Positions 12,773 through 12,933 of a stretch of DNA of 13,691 nucleotides are shown in pieces. Under the pieces are notes generated by a model, which saw nothing but the letters and a program-made list of their open reading frames with translations, searched no databases and was not told the DNA's origin. Origin of the DNA: Candidatus Brocadiaceae bacterium (GTDB taxonomy: Bacteria; Planctomycetota; MHYJ01; JACQXL01; CAKKQI01); contig CAKKQI010000410.1 in NCBI GenBank assembly GCA_919901895.1, positions 1-13,691 of the forward strand, in the 5' to 3' direction. The translations under genes were made by a program, and so were the position numbers. The number at the start of each line of letters is the position of its first letter. Position 1 is the first letter of the stretch.

Positions 12773-12809
12773 GATTAAGAAACTCTAACAAAACCTATAG
12801 TAAAATGTC

Positions 12810-12829
12810 ATTCCTGCGGAAGCAGGAAT
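12810..12829. repeat. ATTCCTGC hairpin, GGAA loop
   Basis: ATTCCTGC (12810-12817) pairs perfectly with GCAGGAAT (12822-12829) around GGAA, a GNRA-type tetraloop. With the preceding TGTC (12806-12809) it is one copy of the TGTCATTCC-type palindrome; the second copy lies inverted at 12853-12877. Confidence 0.8.
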
Positions 12830-12853
12830 CTATGCTATTATTTTCTTATCTGG

Positions 12854-12873
12854 ATTCCCGCTTTCGCGGGAAT
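12854..12873. repeat. ATTCCCGC hairpin, inverted copy
   Basis: ATTCCCGC (12854-12861) pairs perfectly with GCGGGAAT (12866-12873) around TTTC (GAAA on the other strand). Read in reverse complement from 12877 it matches 12806-12830 at all but three positions. Similar ATTCCC-N8-GGGAAT repeats are known from other bacteria, for example the Neisseria dRS3 repeats; kinship is not implied. Confidence 0.8.
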
Positions 12874-12924
12874 GACAGAATGAACGGGAATAATAAAAAA
12901 TACGGTTTTGTTAGAGTTTCTAAA

Positions 12925-12933
12925 AACAAAACC
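12925..12933 (+). promoter_or_regulatory. Alternative pairing partner for the 3' arm of the inverted repeat
   Basis: AACAAAACC (12925-12933) repeats the inner end of the 5' arm (12787-12795). It can pair locally with GGTTTTGTT (12904-12912) across a 12-base loop, competing with the long-range 18-bp helix. It ends 12 bases before the fabZ-like ATG, in a leader that has no clear Shine-Dalgarno sequence. Two exclusive folds are the layout of attenuators and translation switches. Function is inference. Confidence 0.4.

Follow-up and report, generated by a model that had tools for sequence, protein, structure and literature searches.

A 142-bp segment lying between the promoter and the start codon of a FabA/FabZ-like dehydratase gene (fabZ) is, as judged from its sequence and that of its relatives, very probably a non-autonomous mobile element (MITE) of IS5-family type. 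It appears to have inserted at a TAA just past the fabZ -10 box, and would now form most of the 5′ UTR of the gene. The segment (12779-12920) is delimited by its terminal inverted repeats (TIRs) and their flanks within the window, the stretch of 13,691 nucleotides of Candidatus Brocadiaceae DNA (contig CAKKQI010000410.1) that was analysed as a whole. An earlier note on this DNA had left two possibilities side by side, a cis-regulatory RNA or a mobile element that landed at +1. The landing of a mobile element near +1 is strongly supported by the copies, the TIRs, the 3-bp target duplication and the short leader found in the nearest homolog.

Anatomy of the element and its gene context

All features described here lie on the forward strand of the window unless stated otherwise. 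The upstream gene (11240-12733) encodes a Ser/Thr protein kinase-like protein (Pkinase, PF00069), a homolog of which also precedes fabZ in G001, the genome with the nearest FabZ homolog. It is followed by a sigma-70-like promoter, TTGACT-17-TATACT (12744-12772), which lies outside the element and has a TATAAT at the matching place in G001. This promoter was predicted in the earlier note and is present: TTGACT-17-TATACT matches 10 of the 12 consensus positions. The scan itself returned 4 promoter-like matches against a shuffle mean of 2.1, a small excess that makes for weak promoter evidence when taken alone. Between the -35 and -10 hexamers, positions 12757-12770 (AGCGGTTGACCGCT) form a palindrome with 6-bp arms that resembles an operator site. 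The dehydratase gene (PF07977) occupies 12946-13425, and the next ORF (13422-13691), which is cut by the window end, has a similar ORF after fabZ in G001. Its earlier label, DUF362, was not confirmed: at E 0.001, no Pfam family was matched by the 90-residue part that lies in the window. A Shine-Dalgarno sequence is indeed absent before fabZ, but an SD-like 4-mer was found for just 17 of 62 ORFs of the window's own genome (G000; 2.50 Mb in 509 contigs, 93% completeness) in a crude longest-ORF scan of its fetched loci (ORFs of at least 200 aa).

An inverted-repeat search placed the TIRs of the element at 12779-12795 (GAAACTCTAACAAAACC, left) and 12904-12920 (GGTTTTGTTAGAGTTTC, right), and the two are complementary at 17 of 17 bp. 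They are bordered by the two copies of a TAA target-site duplication, at 12776-12778 and 12921-12923. The interval 12775-12924 as a whole contains a 21-nt inverted repeat (95% complementary) around a second one of 25 nt (88%). The core of the element consists of two REP-type palindromes in opposite orientation, each with a TGTC tag, an 8-bp stem and a 4-nt loop. Palindrome 1 (12806-12832) ends in the tail CTA and reads TGTC-ATTCCTGC-GGAA-GCAGGAAT-CTA, and palindrome 2 (12851-12877, reverse strand) ends in the tail CCA and reads TGTC-ATTCCCGC-GAAA-GCGGGAAT-CCA. With the exception of the tail CTA in palindrome 1, both fit the definition of the CGTC-1 REP dimer. To the right of the element, positions 12925-12940 match the reverse complement of 12897-12912 at 15 of 16 bases, a level not reached once when the same 22 letters were shuffled 200,000 times. 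We interpret this stretch as probably a third inner end of the element, now decayed, and as the likely source of the alternative fold proposed in the earlier note.

Copies, target duplications and the parent insertion sequence

A BLAST search of 12770-12945 against G000 (E up to 10) gave 73 matches, many being isolated REP or TIR pieces. One copy, on contig C188, is 97% identical over query positions 5-154 (150 of the 176 query bases) and lies at an unrelated site; another, on C32, is 78% identical over query positions 3-152. From translations read by eye, we take the neighbours of the C188 copy to be alanyl-tRNA synthetase-like and thiazole synthase-like genes, and those of the C32 copy to be exchanger-like and ThiF-like genes. 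With up to 3 mismatches, TAAGAGACTCTAACAAAAC occurs 15 times in forward and 13 times in reverse orientation in G000, compared with 0 and 0 for the reversed control. The other 19 genomes searched have few matches, some of them (G001 and G009) no more than the control, indicating that the high copy number is a trait of G000 and not of the whole order. The search of the own genome, by which a MITE was to be told from a riboregulator, thus revealed many copies at other sites and favours the MITE.

Ten complete elements in G000 were listed by hand, eight with the TIR of the window element and two with a variant TIR. Every one of the ten carries a REP dimer. Three dimer types were seen, CGTC-1 in six elements, GTCATTRCGAG in three and GTAG in two, and one element has two of these types. 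As to position, two elements are located between convergent ORFs; the L014 element sits within a 119-aa ORF of doubtful reality, two elements overlap an ORF end by 12-13 bases, and the remainder are intergenic. In L013 (G000:C357), a 283-bp copy, the REP core is split by a GTCATTRCGAG-type dimer, a nested insertion. The sole Y1_Tnp (RAYT-like) gene found, L283 (G000:C364:15138-15458), adjoins GTAG-type palindromes that resemble the L015 and L016 cores.

Target duplication was assessed on 65 distinct paired elements collected from all fetched loci, with ends of at most 1 mismatch in 11 bases and at least 13 of 17 complementary positions. The set was kept whole, with L127, L128, L143 and L148 among the probable chance matches. 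Left and right 3-bp flanks agree in 49 of the 65, whilst re-pairing left with right flanks at random gave on average 23.9 such cases and never more than 38 (2000 trials), and the flanks are TAA or TTA in most. The other 16 lack identical flanks, and some of these are chance matches. The window element itself has a short TNA-type duplication, TAA/TAA. A TA target of the IS630 type was rejected because the flanks read TWA. In 42 of the 65 elements the complementarity of the two core halves exceeds that of at least 99 of 100 shuffles, and in 23 it does not; strongly palindromic cores are therefore common, not universal. The paired pattern CTCTAACAAAAN{95,125}TTTTGTTAGAG was found in 37 stretches across 84,980 species (one genome each), a list that may lack entries closely related to the window's genome, and in 1 stretch in viral contigs. 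Hosts in which the TWA flanks are as expected include Sedimentisphaerales, other Planctomycetota, candidate division FCPU426, Paludibacterium and Bosea; matches without TWA flanks in Nitrosomonadales, Thalassobius and Methanocellales may be chance.

At the sequence level, the TIR and the TWA duplication agree with those of IS5-family elements whose transposase is of IS5_3/IS402 type; the ends of such elements have the form GARNNNCTAACAAAAC, and their 3-bp TNA duplication is as in the window element. One transposase gene of this type ends inside the TIR type of the window element: a 172-aa ORF in G067, cut by the contig start, scores 125.5 bits to NCBIfam IS5_3 (cut-off 110), and its stop codon lies within GTTTTGTTAGAGTGCC, followed by TAA, which is the right end of the window's element family. 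A similar transposase locus in G062 (L222) has a variant end. The closest plasmid matches are annotated as IS5/IS402-family; a Cupriavidus taiwanensis copy has the ends GAGCGGCTAACAAAACC with TAA on either side, and a Burkholderia IS402-family copy has the ends GAGACGGTTTC with TAA/TAA. On the planctomycete side, 12 transposase loci were examined. Both ends were seen in 9, of which 8, as read by eye, have identical 3-bp flanks (L276 has TTA/TAA), and the ends of L278 are GAAYCCCTAACAAAA. The complete IS5-family elements found have ends that are related, not identical, to the window TIR.

The window element differs from these insertion sequences in being 142 bp long and in having no transposase gene. 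No cognate transposase was found in G000 (509 contigs, 93% completeness), where the two DDE_Tnp_1 genes are without the window's TIR. Searches with the PF13340 and PF13359 profiles in nine genomes gave mostly other IS types, but yielded L222 and L223. An intact element with a transposase and both exactly matching TIRs (GNNNCTCTAACAAAAC) was not found, L223 being cut by the contig start, and no intact transposase element was seen at the unpaired TIRs in other genomes. We propose that an IS5_3/IS402-type transposase, acting in trans, moved the element by recognizing its GARNCTCTAACAAAAC ends, and that the CGTC-type REP dimer core would have been carried along.

Folding of the leader and its consequences for fabZ

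Transcription from the upstream promoter, if it is active, would start in or beside the left TIR and give an RNA with a very stable hairpin that ends some 25 nt short of the start codon. The predicted fold of the RNA from 12779 to 12921 has an energy of -63.4 kcal/mol (z -11.3), and 0 of 200 shuffles were as good. The long closing helix described in the earlier note is a perfect 17 bp (12779-12795 with 12904-12920), and its two 8-bp hairpins exist as sequence at 12810-12829 and 12854-12873. The three-way junction built from them is not the predicted state. In the minimum-energy fold both palindromes pair together to give one long hairpin, since mutual pairing (-40.4) is favoured over folding apart (-11.5 and -12.1), and the junction was rejected on these energies. 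As to the alternative pairing, AACAAAACC at 12925-12933 can indeed pair with the 3′ arm, and the match is longer than was given (12897-12912 with 12925-12940, 16 nt, 94%), but the pairing is energetically unfavoured. The forced alternative helix has -56.8 compared with -64.7 for the main fold, a cost of 7.9 kcal/mol, and its base pairs are predicted at probabilities of 1e-5 to 3e-5. Given this gap no switch is predicted, and a switch between two folds of equal energy was rejected. Bases 12926-12946 are predicted to be mostly unpaired, such that the hairpin should not mask the start codon. Rfam gave no match at 12779-12920 at E up to 1, in agreement with the earlier remark that no known riboswitch class matches, and a riboswitch or other known RNA family was set aside.

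FabZ-like matches were found in 56 of 59 genomes, and 30 loci, the own locus included, were examined (homologs 39-70% identical). In the upstream 400 bp (242 bp for L048), the TIR and REP (at most 1 mismatch) are present at the own locus only and at 0 of the 29 other loci, and the element is not conserved before these homologs. Neighbour conservation around fabZ was compared in G001. This genome (FabZ 70% identical) has the same kinase-fabZ order without the element, and the 48 nt between the kinase stop codon and the ATG contain TATAAT and AAAGGA. As far as structure is concerned, G001 is thus a relative with the operon but a short unstructured leader, an observation that the earlier note would have held against a regulatory role. 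Alignment of the window to G001 scores higher with the element removed (344.9) than with the element kept (319.5), at a divergence too large for the exact empty junction to be read base for base.

The outcome for fabZ is, by analogy to Correia/NEMIS elements, likely to be altered mRNA stability or no effect, rather than ligand-dependent switching. As described in passages of PMC2229807 and PMC3733652, Correia/NEMIS, ERIC, RUP and Nezha resemble the window element in size, in having TIRs, in their intergenic sites and in the long stem-loops of their transcripts. The window element has another TIR and a 3-bp TWA duplication instead of TA. In Neisseria, according to passages of PMC2649163 and PMC2229807, RNase III binds or cuts such mRNA hairpins. 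A PF14622 search of G000 (93% complete assembly) detected no RNase III; the profile was positive in 8 of 14 control genomes. This weakens the NEMIS-like processing step, so that regulation is no more likely than a neutral or mildly stabilising effect.

Could the MITE have been retained because its hairpin tunes fabZ expression? The near-perfect symmetry of the TIRs, both arms of which share a G-to-A/C-to-T departure from the commoner GAGACTC end, would speak for such retention, and passages of PMC2649163 offer a precedent in N. meningitidis, the CREE upstream of mtrCDE. However, recent transposition or conversion also predicts symmetric ends, and a very similar copy is located elsewhere, and we regard this exaptation as unlikely. 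It is more improbable still that mobility resides in the REP dimer, with a RAYT-like enzyme moving it and the outer repeats as its preferred palindromic target. Dimers without the window's TIRs are common in the order, and one Y1_Tnp gene in G000 (40 bits) lies beside GTAG-type palindromes, as seen by eye, yet the window core is of CGTC type, the 97% copy matches across TIR and core as one unit, and the target duplications lie outside the TIRs. A cis-regulatory RNA of the fabZ operon (a riboswitch or protein-binding leader switching between two folds), for which the very stable fold, the position between promoter and fabZ and the existence of an alternative pairing partner could be cited, is largely refuted already and very improbable, being absent at 29 of 29 homologous loci tested, with copies elsewhere that adjoin other genes, folds 7.9 kcal/mol apart and no Rfam match. 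Reading the leader as a MITE removes a false riboswitch candidate. It also indicates how a MITE in a leader can mimic a riboswitch, through perfect helices, apparent covariation of the arms and an alternative partner derived from a decayed third end.

REP dimers inside transposon ends

CGTC-1 REPs are described in passages of Di Nocera et al. 2013 (PMC3733652) as having a CGTC or TGTC tag, an 8-bp stem beginning with AT, a 4-nt loop and a CCA-like tail, and as forming dimers. The window core shares the features of these CGTC-tagged dimers, namely the TGTC tag, the 8-bp stem with AT start, the 4-nt loop, the CCA-like tail and the opposite orientation. In those passages no transposase association is reported for CGTC REPs, and the question of what moves them is left as a closing puzzle; section 7 mentions dimers within palindromes in a few species. 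In the window, by comparison, the palindrome around the dimer is an IS5-type TIR with a target duplication.

To place this arrangement, 55 CGTC-type dimers were compiled from loci of G000 and G003-G007, genomes of one order, a non-random set that is BLAST-derived and includes some G000 loci fetched for their TIR. For 22 of the 55, the inverted repeat in the 70-bp flanks lies above the 95th percentile of mismatched pairs. Flanks taken 100 bp further away passed this threshold in 1 of 54 cases, and shuffles in 37 of 2750. Six of these 22 enclosed dimers have the window's TIR type or a variant of it, and the others were sorted by eye into at least seven further types. Loci with CGTC-type dimers in unrelated inverted repeats are L028, L030, L023, L234, L252, L235, L236, L238, L240, L244, L246, L026 and L256. 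The L256 end, TATAGTGGTTATTA, resembles the Correia end.

Two aspects are possibly new: that the REP dimers held between IS5-type ends of one kind are exchangeable, and that CGTC-type dimers often lie within other, unrelated inverted repeats. We found no report of REP dimers in exchangeable or unrelated transposon ends in titles, abstracts and passages of a mainly open-licence literature, and a literature search by short sequence strings gave, among the matches listed, titles that look unrelated. More broadly, we suggest tentatively, as a real possibility that we would not yet favour, that REP dimers (CGTC-1, GTAG and GTCATTRCGAG) are exchangeable cores of DDE-transposase MITEs, with different dimers found in one TIR type and several TIR types around one dimer type. 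Exchangeable ends and cores bear on the published puzzle of CGTC REPs without a transposase. If the pattern holds broadly, the spread of REPs would become directly testable, by tabulating over complete genomes which TIR type goes with which core type. If the suggestion is true, REPs without a transposase of their own could spread as passengers within genomes, and perhaps between phyla.
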